DNA from: a virus
IMG/VR virus record: IMGVR_UViG_3300032289_001936
Location: 1 to 25,796 of that record
Length of the DNA: 25,796 bases
Reading direction: 5' to 3' (one strand)
Below the pieces are notes generated by a model, which worked only from the letters and a program-made list of their open reading frames with translations, was not told where the DNA came from and made no database searches. The stretch's first letter is position 1; every line of letters begins with the position of its first letter. A program made the translations under genes and the position numbers. Positions 2,038-25,360 of the stretch are shown piece by piece.

Positions 2038-3212
2038 GTATAAGAGTTAGAGATAATTTATCATCTGTTGTTGCTTCAGTTGGAAGAGGAGGTGCATCTT
2101 CTTTTAAAAGAGCTCAAGTAGGAAGAGTATATGGAGTAGTAACCACAGAAAATACCCCAACTCCAGCTATGTTTTTAAAAGCAGGAGGTTGGAATGGTAT
2201 AGGAACTATATTTTATCTTCCTTATGATCAATCAGTAAATATAAGTGGAACTGTTGAAAACTCTTTTTTAGATACTTGCAAAATAGCTAAACCTCTTTAT
2301 CCCCAATTTCAGTACTATCCAGTATTAGGTGAATTAGTCTTTTTAGAAGATCTTGCATCACCTATATCTCAAATTTCAAATAATGCTCCTCAAAAATATT
2401 ATATTGCTTCTATTAATATATGGAATAATCAACAACAAAATTCTCAACCTGCTAATAAAAATGATAGTATAGGAGTTACATTTGTTGAAAATCCTCAAAT
2501 TAAAACCTTATTACCTTTTGAAGGAGATCATATATTGCAAGGTAGACAGGGTGCTGCTTTAAGATTTAGTTCAACTACAAAGTTATATAGAAGTATAAAT
2601 GAATGGAGTAATGTGGGTAGTAATATAGATCCTATTACTATCTTAACAAATGGATTTAACTATAACCCAGATGAAAAATTTCATGTTGAACAAATAAATA
2701 AAGATCTTTCTTCTATTTATCTTACTTCAACCCAACAGCTTCCACTTCAAACAGATAAAAATGGAGTTTTAAATAATTTAACTAATCCTTTAAATGTACC
2801 TGATTATTTTGGGGCTCAAGCTATTATTAATAGTAATAGAATTATTATAAATTCTAAGAAGGACGAGGTAATGATATTTGCTAAAACAAATGTTGAAATT
2901 AATACTAAAAATGTTATTAATTTAAATGCTGATGAACGAGTTCATTTAAATTCTAATAATGTTTTTTTAGGCCCTTATAGTTCTACCAACATACCCCAAC
3001 CTGTTTTATTAGGAAATGAAACTGTAAGATTATTAATTCAATTAAATAAAACTTTAAATAGGCTTGCTGGTTATTTATCAAGTGCTGTTAGTACAGCTGA
3101 AGGAAGTCCTATAGTATCTTTAAAAGCAGCCGGAACTGATTTAGCTGGAGATATTAAACAATTAAATAAATTATTAAATAATATTACTTCTAAAAAAGTA
3201 TTTACTGTATAA
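2034..3212 (+). CDS. Baseplate central hub/spike candidate (gp5-like without lysozyme domain)
   Basis: A 392-residue beta-rich protein. Residues about 30-120 (GRVYGVVTTEN..., VLGELVFLED) look like an OB-type hub domain. The middle carries GRQGAALRFSSTTKLYRS followed by a segment ending IYLTSTQQLPL, a pattern I associate with gp5/VgrG-type spike proteins of marine T4-like phages. Residues about 275-325 show the short alternating strands of a beta-helix spike (VMIFAKTNVEINTKNVINLN, then VHLNSNNVFLG). The C-terminal 70 residues are helical. T4 gp5 has a lysozyme domain in this protein; here none is visible, and a separate GH19 enzyme is encoded at 7088-7687. Its start overlaps the previous stop by 4 nt, and its end overlaps the next ATG by 1 nt. 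Arginine is almost always AGA. Confidence 0.55.
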   Translation: MSIRVRDNLSSVVASVGRGGASSFKRAQVGRVYGVVTTENTPTPAMFLKAGGWNGIGTIFYLPYDQSVNISGTVENSFLDTCKIAKPLYPQFQYYPVLGELVFLEDLASPISQISNNAPQKYYIASINIWNNQQQNSQPANKNDSIGVTFVENPQIKTLLPFEGDHILQGRQGAALRFSSTTKLYRSINEWSNVGSNIDPITILTNGFNYNPDEKFHVEQINKDLSSIYLTSTQQLPLQTDKNGVLNNLTNPLNVPDYFGAQAIINSNRIIINSKKDEVMIFAKTNVEINTKNVINLNADERVHLNSNNVFLGPYSSTNIPQPVLLGNETVRLLIQLNKTLNRLAGYLSSAVSTAEGSPIVSLKAAGTDLAGDIKQLNKLLNNITSKKVFTV

Positions 3213-4489
3213 TGTCTAATAAAATTAATATATCACCTATTATATCTCCTAATATAGTAGAAACAATATCTAAGGCAGCTCCTATTAAATCTTTTGGATC
3301 TCAACTTAAAGATAAGAGTAAAGAAATACTTATAATAGGAGACCAAACTAAAACAGCTCAATTAGATAATGAACTTGATATTTTGACTAAAAAAGAACAA
3401 GAAGCAGGAATTGAAAAGAGCAAAACCGAAGAAGACGCTATATATAAACTTAATACTAAACAAATTACCCAAGACCAATATAATAAAATAATAGAAACAG
3501 CCTCAGCTTCTTTAATAGCTTCAAAAGCAATTATTAGTTTAAATCAAGCTAAATTACAGTTAGATAAAAATAATATAATAAATAATCCTTATACTCCTCT
3601 TAAAGAAAATCAAAATATTATAAGTAGAGAAATTAAAAATTTAGATAAAGTTGTAAGGGAAACTGAGAATAAATCAAAAAAAGATTTAGCTAAACAAGTG
3701 TTATCTAACCCAACTAAAACTCTAGCTTCAATTTTATCTCTTCAATTATCAAATAACCTTTCAATACTTATTTCTCAAAGAAAAAAATTAGAAGAATTAG
3801 TAGATCAAGTAAACATATATATAGATACTCAAGTTAAAGATGAAACAACGGTAACAATAGCTACTAATTTAAGAAATAATGCTATATTGTTAATCAATAA
3901 TAGTATTAAAAAGATAGATAACATTAATAAAATAGTTAAAACTATTAATGCTGTTGTAATTATTATATCTTTAGTATTAGTAGTAATAGAAAGAATTCTT
4001 AGTTTACCTATTCCGTTTTTACTTCCTTTAAAAGTTGAACTTCAACCTCGACTTCAAAAAATTATAAGATTATTATCTGCTATAAGTGTTTTATTAACTA
4101 TAATTTCTGTATTATTATCTAATGAAATAAGTAGATTAATAGAATTAAAAGAACGTTTAAAACAAATTAGTTTAAAATTAGATAATAAAGCTATAGATAA
4201 CTTAACTGAACAACAATTAACTGAATTATCAAATGTATTCCTACCAACTGGTGGAGATTATGGGTCTTCTGGTAGAGATTATGGATCTTATAAAGGATTT
4301 AAATTTGCTATTAAAGAAGAACAAAATAATCCTCAATTTGTTGTTAAAGGTAATAAACGTCGTTATGCTGTAGCTATTAATAGCCGTGGAGTAGAATCAG
4401 TTAAAAGTGAATACTCATTTACACAAGATCCAAATGATTTAATAGAACAACTAAAACTAATTATTGATCAACAAAATTTACAAGGTTAA
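3212..4489 (+). CDS. Coiled-coil protein with two hydrophobic segments (tape-measure or hub-core candidate)
   Basis: A 425-residue protein. Residues 1-240 are charged and helical (KEQEAGIEKSKTEED, QRKKLEELVDQVN). Two long hydrophobic segments follow at about residues 243-262 (NAVVIIISLVLVVIERILSL) and 283-305 (IIRLLSAISVLLTIISVLL). A Gly/Tyr linker (GGDYGSSGRDYGSYKG) leads to a small C-terminal domain of about 70 residues. Long helices plus membrane-like segments, located between the spike and gp25 genes, fit a tail tape-measure or hub-core protein that enters the host membrane at injection. It is shorter than T4 gp29 (590 residues), so if it is the ruler the tail would be shorter. Assignment is by context; no family signature was recognised. 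Arginine codons change from AGA to CGT in the C-terminal domain. Confidence 0.6.
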   Translation: MSNKINISPIISPNIVETISKAAPIKSFGSQLKDKSKEILIIGDQTKTAQLDNELDILTKKEQEAGIEKSKTEEDAIYKLNTKQITQDQYNKIIETASASLIASKAIISLNQAKLQLDKNNIINNPYTPLKENQNIISREIKNLDKVVRETENKSKKDLAKQVLSNPTKTLASILSLQLSNNLSILISQRKKLEELVDQVNIYIDTQVKDETTVTIATNLRNNAILLINNSIKKIDNINKIVKTINAVVIIISLVLVVIERILSLPIPFLLPLKVELQPRLQKIIRLLSAISVLLTIISVLLSNEISRLIELKERLKQISLKLDNKAIDNLTEQQLTELSNVFLPTGGDYGSSGRDYGSYKGFKFAIKEEQNNPQFVVKGNKRRYAVAINSRGVESVKSEYSFTQDPNDLIEQLKLIIDQQNLQG

Positions 4490-4501: not shown

Positions 4502-4828
4502 ATGAATGCTAAGGTATTTAAAAATTTAATTAAAGAAGCCGTTCGCGAAGCAGTTCGTGAAGAAATCGGTGTTCTTTTATTAGAACAGAAAAAACAAGAA
4601 TTAAACGAAAGTAAAACATTTAGTTTTACTAGTAGTGATGTACCAACAGGTGGTAATAATGAAGCTAAAGCTGCTTTACGTAGTAAAATGGGATCTATGT
4701 TCGGATATGAACAGCAACCTCAATTAAAGGTTGATCCTGCTTCTGATAATCCATTTGCTGCTTTTATTGCTGATGCTGGTGCTAATATGAGTGCTCATGA
4801 TAGAGCTGGATTAAGAAATTTAGATTAA
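4502..4828 (+). CDS. Unknown protein with an amphipathic N-terminal helix
   Basis: A 108-residue protein. It opens with a regular amphipathic helix (VFKNLIKEAVREAVREEIGV) and then becomes low in complexity, with Gly/Ser/Ala-rich stretches (SSDVPTGGNNEAKAALRSK) and NPFAAFIADAGANMSAHDRA near the end. The helix contains I10-K11-E12 followed by A13, which fits the (I/L)-x-E|A/G cleavage rule of T4 prohead protease gp21, as in packaged internal proteins. Equally, it may only be a docking helix of a baseplate component, since the neighbours are hub and gp25 genes; the gp25 gene follows after 1 nt. I do not recognise the family. Confidence 0.65.
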   Translation: MNAKVFKNLIKEAVREAVREEIGVLLLEQKKQELNESKTFSFTSSDVPTGGNNEAKAALRSKMGSMFGYEQQPQLKVDPASDNPFAAFIADAGANMSAHDRAGLRNLD

Positions 4829-18728: not shown

Positions 18729-19157
18729 ATGAATAAATGGAAAAGTTGGGATGTGATAGATCCAACAAAATATTTTGGTTTTGTTTATAAAATAACTAAT
18801 AATAAAACAGGTAGGTTTTATATTGGTAAAAAAGTGTTTTGGAATAATAAAAAACACAAACTCACTAAAAAACAACTTGCTGAACAATCAGGACCAGGTC
18901 GCAAATCAACTCACGAAGTAATTCGTGTTGAGAGTGATTGGAAAACATATTGGGGTTCAAATAAAGAATTACTTGCTGATATTAAGCAATATGGAGAAGA
19001 AAATTTTGATTGTTGGATATTATCACAATGCAAAACTAAAAAACAACTCACCTATTGGGAAATGCACCATCAGTGTTTAAGTGAAGTTTTGATTGGTAAT
19101 AATCGAGCATATAACGATAATATATTAGGTAAATTTTTCACTAAAGACTTGTTATAG
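18729..19157 (+). CDS. GIY-YIG family nuclease (Seg-like, stand-alone)
   Basis: A 142-residue protein. FGFVYKITNNKTGRFYIGKK (residues 16-35) is the GIY-YIG core with Phe-Val-Tyr for the first motif and Tyr31-Ile-Gly33 for the second. SDWKTYWGSNKELLADIKQYG with ENFDCWIL follows, and Glu111 in YWEMHHQ fits the metal-binding Glu. This short version, without a clear DNA-binding C-terminal domain, is common in T4-like phages, as free-standing homing endonucleases or related housekeeping nucleases. It stands between glycosyltransferase and primase genes, a typical place for an inserted nuclease gene. It starts 3 nt after the previous stop. Whether it is mobile cannot be told from one genome. Confidence 0.8.
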   Translation: MNKWKSWDVIDPTKYFGFVYKITNNKTGRFYIGKKVFWNNKKHKLTKKQLAEQSGPGRKSTHEVIRVESDWKTYWGSNKELLADIKQYGEENFDCWILSQCKTKKQLTYWEMHHQCLSEVLIGNNRAYNDNILGKFFTKDLL

Positions 19158-22109: not shown

Positions 22110-23081
22110 ATGATCCAACTACTAAAAATTGCTAAGCAAATATTAAAAGAAGGCGGTAATGTATTTGGTACTACTGACTCAATTGAAAAAGATAACATTG
22201 AACCTACAATTGAAGAATTTGTAGATCAATTATCTAAAATATTCCCTGCAAAAGCATCTACATTTACTTCATTTGAAAAATTAGGATCAGCTGGTAAAAA
22301 AGCAACATCAGGTGATATTGATTTATCTTACGATATCCAAAATATATTTCCTGGTGGAAAACCTGACTTTAAAGGTTGGGGAGTAGATGAAAATAAATAC
22401 AATGAATTAATAACACAATTTTCAAAACGTGCAAGATCAGCATCACCTGAAAAAATTCAGTTGCGTGCTATGATTGTATTGATAGCTGAAAAAATTAATA
22501 ATGCTTTACCTGATGTTGAAGTAGACGATAAAGCTTCTGGATCTGGTTCTATATTTTGTGCTATTCCTCAATACACCCCTAGTGGTGAAAAATTAGATAA
22601 AGCAGTACAAACTGATATTAATATAGGTAATCCTGAATGGTTACGCTTTAGTTATTATTCTCAATCGTATGAGGGTAATGTTAAAGGTTTACATCGTACA
22701 CAATTAATGTTAGCTTTATTCTCTAATAAAGGTAGAACATTTGGTCATTCTACAGGTGTTATCAATAAAGATACAGGCGAAAAAGAAGCATCTAATCCTA
22801 AAGAAGCAATTGCTTTATTAAATAAATTATATGGTTTTAATTTAACTCAAGATATTTTAGATGATTATTTTAAGTTAGAAGATTTCATGAAGAAAAATAT
22901 ATCTAAAGAAGAATATAACTCTATCATAGACAGATACCTTAAAATACTTGACTCAACTAGAGCCGATATCCCAGACAATCTCCAAAAATATTGGATTGAT
23001 AATCAAGATAGATTAGGATTAAAAGGTAAATTCTTACCTGATAATTCTAAATTAATTCCTTACCAAAAAGAAAAAGCATAA
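22110..23081 (+). CDS. DNA polymerase beta-type nucleotidyltransferase (first of a tandem pair)
   Basis: A 323-residue protein. FEKLGSAGKKATSGDIDLSY holds the nucleotidyltransferase signature: Gly59-Ser60 and, ten residues on, Asp69-x-Asp71; VQTDINIG supplies the third metal-binding acid, Asp169. The fold transfers a nucleotidyl group, but the acceptor (protein, RNA, small molecule) is not visible. The C-terminal half is helical (AIALLNKLYGFNLTQDILDDYF...). The start MIQLLKIAKQILKEGGNV contains L12-K13-E14 before Gly15, which fits the prohead-protease rule seen in packaged T4 proteins. Its stop overlaps the start of the second nucleotidyltransferase by 1 nt, and the two share the FxxF...SGS/GS...GDIDL layout, so they are probably paralogues. 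Confidence 0.75.
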   Translation: MIQLLKIAKQILKEGGNVFGTTDSIEKDNIEPTIEEFVDQLSKIFPAKASTFTSFEKLGSAGKKATSGDIDLSYDIQNIFPGGKPDFKGWGVDENKYNELITQFSKRARSASPEKIQLRAMIVLIAEKINNALPDVEVDDKASGSGSIFCAIPQYTPSGEKLDKAVQTDINIGNPEWLRFSYYSQSYEGNVKGLHRTQLMLALFSNKGRTFGHSTGVINKDTGEKEASNPKEAIALLNKLYGFNLTQDILDDYFKLEDFMKKNISKEEYNSIIDRYLKILDSTRADIPDNLQKYWIDNQDRLGLKGKFLPDNSKLIPYQKEKA

Positions 23082-24886
23082 TGTCAGGTTCAGCAGGTGG
23101 AAATAGAATTACTAGAGATGCTGTTGCTAAAACAACAGACAATTATATCAATAGAATATTAAAGAAATTTCCTACTTTTAAAAGCGCTAAAATTTCGGGT
23201 TCATATAACACAAGTGCTAAAGAAGATTTTGGTGATATTGACTTAATTGTTAATGTAGAAGCTACAGACAAGAAAAATATTAAATTAGAATTAGCCAAAT
23301 TTCTAGCTGCTCTACCAGATGACGTTATTGTACCTTTTAAAAGTGAGAAATATAAAGGTAAAAAATACCTAAACACAGGTGAGATAGTTACTATATTATA
23401 TCCTATAGAAGGTCAACCAGGCCAATACGTTCAAATAGATAATATTGTTTCTGTTAGTGATGATGAAGCTGAATTTAAAAAAGAATTTTTAGATTATCCT
23501 GCTGAAGTACAAGGATTACTGTTAGGATTAGCTAAGGTGATATGTTTAGAAGAAGATCCTAAGTCAATATTTGCTCGTATGGGTATAAAAAATGTACCTG
23601 AACTCGAAGCAAATCAAGAATATGAATTTAATTTATCAAGTGCAGGATTAACATTACGTATAGTAACACTAGATAATTTTAAAGAAGTTGATCGTACCGA
23701 AGTATGGAAAACTAGTAATTGGTCTAATATCAAAAAACTATTTACTAATTATAAAATAGATGGTAAATTCGAAGACCTATTAAATGATATATCATCTAAG
23801 GTAAAAAATCCACGTTCTAAAAATCGCATTAAAGGTATTTTTAATTCGATGGTATCTATTAAAAGTGGTGAAGTAGGTACACCTAAAGGCGATAATAAAC
23901 AAAAATCATTAGATAAAGTGAATAATACATTAAACGAAACTAATTTAGGTAGATATATAGCATCTCTACTTCTTGAACAAGAAGGAACAACATTTGCTCT
24001 ATTCCCAGGTAAATTTAAACCACCACATAAAGGTCACTTTAGTGTGGTAAAACAATTACTTGATAAAGCTGATCAAGTAGTGATATTAATTTCACCTAAA
24101 ATACACGATGGTATATCACCTGAAGAGAGTGTTGCTGCTTGGGAATTATATAAGAAACAATTAGTAGATGGTGATAGAGTTGAATTAAGGATATCTGCTG
24201 TTACTCCTGTTAAGGATGTATTCGATTTTGTAGAAAATAATCCTGAATTAACTGTATATGCTGCTTATGGTAAAGGTGAAGAGGATAGATATAAAAATTT
24301 GAGTAAATATCCAAATGCAAAAGTAGTTGATGGTGGTAATTTTGGTGGTTTAAATGCTACTGATCTTAGACGAGCTATAAAAGCTGGTAATGAAGAGGAA
24401 ATTAAGAAATTCCTACCTGATGGAGTTGAAGTAGCTGATTTTTTACTAGCAATGGGTAAAACATCTAAAGAAGAACCCAAACCAGAAGCTACCCCAGAAC
24501 AACCACCAGTAACTGAAGGTCGTTTAAATGAAAGCCAAACAGCAACTATAGGGGAATTTATAAAGTATGCTGTTAAAAACTTGGCTATTCAAAATCCTCC
24601 ACGTAACTTAACTCTCTCCTATGATACTAATCAAGTAAAAGACAGACGTAGTTTTGGTTATTTTGATCCGAATAATCACAAAATATGGGTTTATGTGAAG
24701 AATAGAAATATGGCTGATATATTAAGAACGTTAGCTCATGAATTAGTTCACCACAAACAAAATTTAGATGGACGAATTAATTATGAAAGTGGAAAAACTG
24801 GTTCTGATATTGAAAACGAAGCAAACGCTAAAGCAGGAGTATTACTAAGAGATTTTGGTAAGAAAAATAATGAAATATATCAATAA
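23081..24886 (+). CDS. Three-domain protein: nucleotidyltransferase, HxGH nucleotidylyltransferase and zinc metallopeptidase
   Basis: This 601-residue protein has three enzyme-like domains. Residues 1-270: polymerase beta-type nucleotidyltransferase (Gly40-Ser41, Asp52-x-Asp54 in GDIDLIV, Asp120 in YVQIDNIV). Residues about 303-460: HxGH nucleotidylyltransferase of the NMNAT/cytidylyltransferase superfamily (ALFPGKFKPPHKGHF with His316 and His319; GLNATDLRRAI at 423-433 in place of the ISSTxxR motif). Residues about 487-601: a zincin-type peptidase (HELVH 553-557, with Glu578 or Glu580 in SDIENEANAKAG as third ligand). Linkers lie at 265-300 and at 460-486 (Pro/Glu-rich). LLE299|Q and LNE484|S, at the two boundaries, resemble prohead-protease sites. 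It could be a polyprotein or a fused modification enzyme. The substrate is not known; homologues of the separate domains occur in marine T4-like phages as I recall. Confidence 0.75.
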   Translation: MSGSAGGNRITRDAVAKTTDNYINRILKKFPTFKSAKISGSYNTSAKEDFGDIDLIVNVEATDKKNIKLELAKFLAALPDDVIVPFKSEKYKGKKYLNTGEIVTILYPIEGQPGQYVQIDNIVSVSDDEAEFKKEFLDYPAEVQGLLLGLAKVICLEEDPKSIFARMGIKNVPELEANQEYEFNLSSAGLTLRIVTLDNFKEVDRTEVWKTSNWSNIKKLFTNYKIDGKFEDLLNDISSKVKNPRSKNRIKGIFNSMVSIKSGEVGTPKGDNKQKSLDKVNNTLNETNLGRYIASLLLEQEGTTFALFPGKFKPPHKGHFSVVKQLLDKADQVVILISPKIHDGISPEESVAAWELYKKQLVDGDRVELRISAVTPVKDVFDFVENNPELTVYAAYGKGEEDRYKNLSKYPNAKVVDGGNFGGLNATDLRRAIKAGNEEEIKKFLPDGVEVADFLLAMGKTSKEEPKPEATPEQPPVTEGRLNESQTATIGEFIKYAVKNLAIQNPPRNLTLSYDTNQVKDRRSFGYFDPNNHKIWVYVKNRNMADILRTLAHELVHHKQNLDGRINYESGKTGSDIENEANAKAGVLLRDFGKKNNEIYQ

Positions 24887-24889
24887 GTT

Positions 24890-25360
24890 ATGTATTCAAT
24901 TTACTGCGATATGGATGGAGTCATTGTTGACTTCGTCAAAGGTTATAAAGAATTAACAGGTGTAGATACTACTCATTATGTTAATAGTACTCCTGAGTTT
25001 TGGCAGCCTGTAGATCAAGCTGGTCCTTCTTGGTGGGCTAATCTAGAATGGAAATCCGATGGTCCTTTACTTTGGCAATATATTAAAAAATATAGACCAA
25101 ATCTCTTATCATCACCATCTCGTAGTGCATCATCTAGAGAAGGAAAAAAAGCATGGGTTAAATCACACATTCCAGCAACACAATATAGAAGCTTATTACT
25201 TTATCCAAGACATGAAAAACAATTATTTTCAGGCAAATATACTATTTTAATTGACGACTTGGAAAAAACAATTAAAGAGTGGCATGCTCAAGGAGGAATT
25301 GGTATTCTTCATACTTCTGCAGCTAATACAATCAAACAACTTAAAGAATTAGATTTATGA
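24890..25360 (+). CDS. HAD-superfamily phosphatase, 5'(3')-deoxyribonucleotidase-like
   Basis: A 156-residue HAD hydrolase. The start IYCDMDGVIVDF gives the nucleophile Asp7 and acid/base Asp9. NLLSSPS (about residues 71-77) is motif II, Lys86/Lys87 in GKKAWVK is the motif III candidate, and ILIDDLEKTIKEW (Asp122, Asp123) is motif IV. The small cap (FWQPVDQAGPSWWANLEW) is like that of 5'(3')-deoxyribonucleotidases (NT5C family), which remove phosphate from dNMPs. In a phage this could balance nucleotide pools. It starts 3 nt after the three-domain protein and overlaps the next gene by 4 nt (ATGA). Confidence 0.8.
   Translation: MYSIYCDMDGVIVDFVKGYKELTGVDTTHYVNSTPEFWQPVDQAGPSWWANLEWKSDGPLLWQYIKKYRPNLLSSPSRSASSREGKKAWVKSHIPATQYRSLLLYPRHEKQLFSGKYTILIDDLEKTIKEWHAQGGIGILHTSAANTIKQLKELDL

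Follow-up and report, generated by a model that had tools for sequence, protein, structure and literature searches.

What would hold two kinds of nucleotidyl-transfer domain and a metallopeptidase together in a single phage protein is the question raised by the ORF at 23081-24886 (plus strand; 601 aa, ATG start) of the window, by which we mean the whole 25.8-kb virus record analysed here. Some of its genes resemble T4-type baseplate genes, and its nearest isolates are the Flavobacterium phages vB_FspM_immuto (immuto). A SegE-type GIY-YIG homing endonuclease gene (18729-19157, plus strand) lies shortly 5' of the primase gene. Full-length relatives of the three-domain ORF are present in many IMG/VR contigs and in immuto, so it is not a chance reading frame. 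A first scan for relatives yielded 11 loci and an alignment-based scan 182, of which 80 were kept.

The structure model (mean pLDDT 84) contains three folded domains, with low-confidence stretches (pLDDT <50) at residues 287-301 and 464-479; a mixed fragment alignment (A5) was left out of folding because its peptidase rows were misplaced. All features of the chain are on the plus strand. Module 1 (23081-23938) consists of a Pol-beta-type nucleotidyltransferase (NTase2) and C-terminal helices ending in LNE/, where the slash marks a predicted cut or the equivalent boundary. By Foldseek this N-terminal domain resembles DNA polymerase lambda/beta, and the GS...DxD...D active-site motif is present (GS 40-41, DID 52-54, D120). 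It is followed by a capsid-targeting-like amphipathic linker helix, TNLGRYIASLLLE (23939-23977), placed between L/I-x-E sites after residues 286 and 299 on the basis of pLDDT, motif counts and comparison with the relative L101. Module 2 (23978-24466) is an HxGH adenylyltransferase of NMNAT/NadD/PPAT-like fold, in which HKGH (316-319) together with T427/R430 forms the HxGH and (S/T)xxR signature of an alpha/beta nucleotidyltransferase fold; its Pfam CTP_transf_like match (residues 307-339) scores above the cut-off (23.5 vs 21 bits), and Foldseek places it with NMN/nicotinate-nucleotide adenylyltransferases (E 8e-7 to NadM). A Pro/Glu-rich linker of low pLDDT (24467-24532), which ends GRLNE/S and is the insertion point of 0-3 cassettes in relatives, leads to module 3 (24533-24886), a zinc metallopeptidase with HELVH at 553-557 and E578/E580 downstream, similar by Foldseek to phage 'IrrE N-terminal-like' proteins.

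Pfam matches for the Pol-beta NTase and the metallopeptidase fall below cut-off, and profiles of NTase2 and of the peptidase had no significant match among PDB sequences. The VIA-align rows span the HxGH domain alone, so the other domains are judged by Foldseek alone. In VIA-align the middle domain reaches Z ~15 to PPAT and 14-15 to NadD, and because these two score alike its substrate cannot be named from the fold. The catalytic residues of all three domains are invariant across 24 aligned relatives (including H553, E554, H557, E578 and E580), bearing out by Pfam, model and Foldseek what an earlier note had read from the letters, namely three domains with intact catalytic residues. In one relative (L099, 6030-9568) the NTase2 part of the frame is broken (15-aa open frame, later start), perhaps by a sequencing error or as a decayed copy.

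The gene upstream, a separate ORF beginning at 22110, overlaps the start of the three-domain ORF by one base (TAATG) and encodes a further Pol-beta-type enzyme, NTase1 (Foldseek E 7.5e-5 to DNA polymerase beta). Across 32 sequences S60, D69, D71 and D169 of its GS/DID/D motif are invariant and G59 is conserved in at least 90%. NTase1 opens with a 14-aa capsid-targeting-like prefix, MIQLLKIAKQILKE (22110-22151, plus strand), which has the form of a T4-type targeting prefix (~10 aa with an L/I-x-E end) and is modelled with pLDDT <50 (residues 1-15); the predicted cut at LKE/GG (LKE/GGNVF) would leave a mature part starting at GGNVF (22152-23081, plus strand). Where relatives have the prefix, E directly precedes GGNVF in 45/45 and the full [LI]xE in 38/45, while six orthologues have no prefix and begin M/GGNVF. 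A misannotated start is ruled out for one such protein, immuto gp181, by an in-frame stop just upstream. In a single relative, L009, NTase1 and the three-domain gene are separated by an inserted ORF (2562-3395) that is P-loop kinase-like and has the prefix MIKLLDILKE/IA.

Related phage proteins, about 70 in number, share the first two domains but range from ~600 to 1358 aa, and most of the complete ones begin MSGSAGGNRI or similar and retain NTase2 and the HxGH domain. The N-terminal 460 aa are common to them and are followed by 0-3 cassettes, sometimes as tandem copies; the range in length comes from these cassettes, which are inserted after the HxGH domain and ahead of the peptidase. In most relatives the peptidase itself is C-terminal or nearly so, and its active-site residues are intact. 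The cassettes include a further NTase (phrog_36119, with matches in 45 phage records, some of them separate genes), one with a weak RegB match (E 0.01), one with a weak HYD1-type ADP-ribosyltransferase match (E ~5e-4, below cut-off) and one with the signature KxACIKYGNGYSFCISARG, whose leading segment also opens a separate gene in L002 and L009. The Tox-ART-HYD1 cassette, at residues 555-596 of L065 and L085 and flanked in L065 by LNE/, LEE/ and LKE/, is by analogy a candidate counterpart of the head-packaged T4 Alt. A relative of the YGNGYSFCISARG cassette lies inside a large protein of megaphage LR756511 (L052; 595 kb), so this module travels outside the present phage group, and in L201, L217 and L218 a ParB-like DGHHRW domain precedes the same peptidase with L/I-x-E at the junction.

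The earlier note had suggested, as a possibility, that the fusion serves modification plus cleavage, or NAD-related chemistry. The domains are instead exchanged, duplicated, lost or encoded as separate genes, with L/I-x-E between them, and a joint chemistry of the three is therefore not supported; NAD-related chemistry is possible for the HxGH domain by itself. The fusion order is held in other phages for the first two domains, but the cassettes vary, and two relatives (L096, L094) are reordered and have no peptidase. Of the two observations that the note had expected to count against it, degenerate catalytic residues are not found, whereas separate genes for the domains are. The short prohead-protease-like L/I-x-E sites between the domains point to a polyprotein, and we think it quite probable that the ORF encodes an effector polyprotein that a T4-like Bacteroidetes phage packages in its head and cuts with its prohead protease; both the cleavage and the packaging we infer.

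The T4 prohead protease gp21, whose targeting peptides are ~10 aa, cleaves at the consensus L/I-x-E (PMC9026906), and in the ORF and its relatives this motif stands, as in gp21-processed proteins, at predicted mature ends. Five L/I-x-E occur in the 601 residues, the glutamates at 286, 299 and 484 lying at or near the edges of low-confidence linkers. Of 29 relatives (<92% identity, counted ungapped), 26 have an L/I-x-E 4-10 residues ahead of the HxGH domain, in the form of 12 different triplets; in 2000 shuffles of the same linkers the count averaged 4.5 and never exceeded 12. A column-by-column count on pairwise alignments gives only 11/30 because gaps shift the register, and the ungapped count was used instead. 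At these sites P3 is L or I only (never V or M), P2 is free, P1 is E in 26/29 (no other residue tested exceeds 7), and P1' is usually A, Q, E or D. The motif reaches 4.8 per 100 aa in the HxGH linker vs 0.92 in the domains. Just upstream of the peptidase, 27 of 34 nonredundant fused homologues have it (9.3 expected), and the remaining 7/34 have none at the expected place; some junctions depart from the consensus with V, T or no L/I at P3. Chance occurrence is ruled out by the shuffles and residue controls. In longer linkers two L/I-x-E flank a short amphipathic helix, as with the linker helix of the window.

Such linkers might also be relics of fused capsid-targeting peptides in a protein that stays whole as a true multifunctional enzyme. 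This reading draws on the fact that cleavage of the chain is inferred and that the fusions seem to have joined separate genes bearing such prefixes; against it, the conservation of P1 and P3 next to a variable P2 and variable flanks implies current selection, and constant cassette swapping speaks against a joint reaction. We regard it as unlikely.

A cleaved polyprotein also fits where genes break. In L096 a single frame runs HxGH-NTase1-NTase2 with junctions INE/GGNVF and LNE/SGSAGG, L094 has the same two junctions, and the internal LNE/SGSAGG of both compares with M/SGSAGG at the start of the window protein. The HxGH domain stands alone in cyanophages and in L101/L102, the L101 gene starting MNQLVRELVKGLFE/QEKPKVVALYGGGF and matching the internal LGRYIASLLLE/QEGTTFALFPGKF of the window. 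The peptidase stands alone in Synechococcus phages B23 and S-SRM01, and in B23 the separate protein starts MNYKQFLRE/STEK, aligning with the internal LNE/SQTA of the window. The breaks of split and joined genes fall at these glutamates, so the predicted mature ends stay fixed while the genes rearrange. By this comparison the enzyme modules are parted by L/I-x-E and by amphipathic helices that appear capsid-targeting-like, and gain, loss, fusion and fission take place at those motifs. The adjoining gene of the window (24890-25360, plus strand) encodes an NT5C-like nucleotidase that starts MYSIYCDMDG with no prefix; its orthologue immuto gp183 has a targeting-like prefix, MKKVMGNLADLLLE/ESDFMPKYQIYCDMDG.

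The same rearrangements bear on whether the C-terminal zinc peptidase cuts its own chain, with L/I-x-E as its own site. The position and intact active site of the peptidase in most relatives would suit this, and autoprocessing has a proposed precedent in polyvalent proteins and in phage P1 DdrB (PMC5512222). However, L/I-x-E junctions persist in proteins with no HExxH domain at all (L096, L097, L094), which makes autoprocessing less likely; the motif also occurs in neighbouring single-enzyme genes and in capsid proteins, and it is the gp21 consensus. We give this possibility little weight, and since autoprocessing is less likely at these sites, the peptidase is better read as a further cargo enzyme or a later, in-host processor.

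Processing by a prohead protease, the reading we prefer, is consistent with the genomic setting. A Peptidase_S77 (gp21-type) gene was found among the relatives' contigs in 6/14, then 19/35 and then 12/17 records, with matches over the cut-off in most long contigs and a gene in nearly every one >100 kb. Two relatives' contigs above that length (124 and 102 kb; both linear and perhaps incomplete) have none, nor does the 25.8-kb window fragment. In immuto the polyprotein gene lies in a stretch that reaches the terminase, portal, S77 protease, scaffold and capsid genes, and L/I-x-E is borne by its capsid proteins and S77 protease, N-terminally in the major capsid proteins. Over five long contigs and the window, L/I-x-E ending at residues 4-16 occurs in 69/144 head-stretch ORFs vs 90/523 elsewhere (odds ratio 4.4, p 3e-13, Fisher test on pooled genomes that are related to one another); taken singly, G002 (3e-5) and immuto (2e-4) are significant and G008 is not. 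At 4502-4828 (plus strand) of the window, among baseplate-like genes, a 108-aa ORF has three L/I-x-E in its first 37 residues (NLIKE/AVREAVREEIGVLLLE/QKKQELNE/SK) and recurs in G002 at 170180-170503; its product is possibly another head- or prohead-processed protein, encoded far from the head cluster.

Mass spectrometry by others has detected NMNAT/cytidylyltransferase proteins in the virions of three cyanophages (S-SCSM1, S-CREM2 and S-CBWM1), with their authors' caveat that carry-over could account for the detection (PMC9602691, PMC10665884). The virion-detected HxGH homologues begin MKSFLQFLKE/A (S-SCSM1) and MKNFSSFLTE/A (S-CREM2), and L/I-x-E falls at residue 10 in eight of nine stand-alone HxGH homologues and at residue 12 in the ninth. 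That the protein is an unpackaged host-takeover or NAD-salvage enzyme made during infection, the direction of the earlier note, is very improbable: the HxGH fold does resemble NMNAT, NadD and PPAT and phages are known to restore NAD (PMC9503650), but the gene lies in a stretch reaching head genes, relatives' enzymes bear head-targeting-like prefixes and homologues are detected in virions.

For the packaged polyprotein we propose the following course. The chain would be drawn into the prohead core by its internal targeting helix, and the S77 (gp21-type) prohead protease of the phage would cut after each L/I-x-E. Once released, NTase2, the HxGH adenylyltransferase and the peptidase, along with the NTase1 that the coupled gene supplies, would remain in the mature head, enter the bacterium with the phage DNA and then act separately. 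Their predicted activities in the host are nucleotidylation of proteins or RNA by the NTases, adenylyl transfer linked to NAD or other cofactors, and proteolysis of host proteins. More broadly, many T4-like Bacteroidetes phages probably make polyproteins in which L/I-x-E and internal targeting helices act as a universal joint for swappable cassettes that enter the prohead on one common chain and are released by the head protease, so that the injected payload could be updated by one recombination.

A puzzling enzyme fusion thereby gives way to a testable rule: in T4-like phages, cargo packaged in the head would be recognisable by an L/I-x-E with an amphipathic helix beside it, both in separate genes and within a chain. 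The rule predicts which 'hypothetical' genes are injected effectors, and their likely mature ends. Under it the T4 head protease would count among the enzymes that process polyproteins, in principle like those of eukaryotic RNA viruses, and it offers a possible mechanism for the presence of cyanophage NMNAT-like proteins in virions.

Several known systems share parts of this picture. For the isolated domains, NadM/NadR, NadD and PPAT share the fold, the HxGH and the (S/N)xTxxR-type motif, but are only ~11-22% identical to the HxGH domain, and their fold does not reveal its substrate. Protein-AMPylating or nucleotidylating Pol-beta NTases share GS...DxD...D with NTase1 and NTase2, for which NMP transfer to protein is a putative activity. 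The virion proteins of S-SCSM1 and S-CREM2 have the HxGH domain and a T4-like prefix (L-K-E/A, L-T-E/A), in a position close to that of the ~ten-residue targeting prefix of T4 internal proteins; unlike the ORF, they and the S-CBWM1 protein are single-enzyme genes, and the targeting prefix goes unmentioned in the passages of their papers covered here. In the literature covered, which included few subscription journals or preprints, we found no prior account of targeting sequences in cyanophages or of prohead-protease sites between polyprotein modules, and neither cleavage results nor virion proteomics for the window phage or immuto.

The two closest parallels are of different kinds. The internal head proteins of T4 and Alt carry a short N-terminal prefix ending L/I-x-E that is cut by gp21, and are effectors for early infection (PMC9026906); an S77 protease is likewise present in relatives of the window phage. 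In T4 each has its own gene and prefix, whereas here enzymes share a chain with internal targeting-like helices and several predicted cut sites. The ORF begins MSGSAGG and has no L/I-x-E before residue 158, and because an N-terminal targeting peptide is absent it is no plain T4 internal protein. Polyvalent proteins (Iyer et al. 2017, PMC5512222) combine catalytic domains of several unrelated kinds within a single phage polypeptide, as here; their wider set includes zincin-like HExxH peptidase, Pol-beta NTase, ART-like and BECR-like domains, and both the zincin-like HExxH with a downstream Glu and the domain shuffling among relatives recur in the ORF and its family. Injection with the DNA was proposed for them, and viral polyproteins are their authors' own analogy (PMC5512222). 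They differ in that release is ascribed to embedded peptidases, whereas a T4 prohead-protease motif lies at the junctions here; in that the HxGH domain is near-constant here, the word cytidylyltransferase being absent from PMC5512222; and in that the present modules also occur as T4-type targeting-peptide proteins. The ORF is best explained as a polyvalent protein crossed with T4 internal proteins, the predicted prohead-protease sites at its junctions being the new part.
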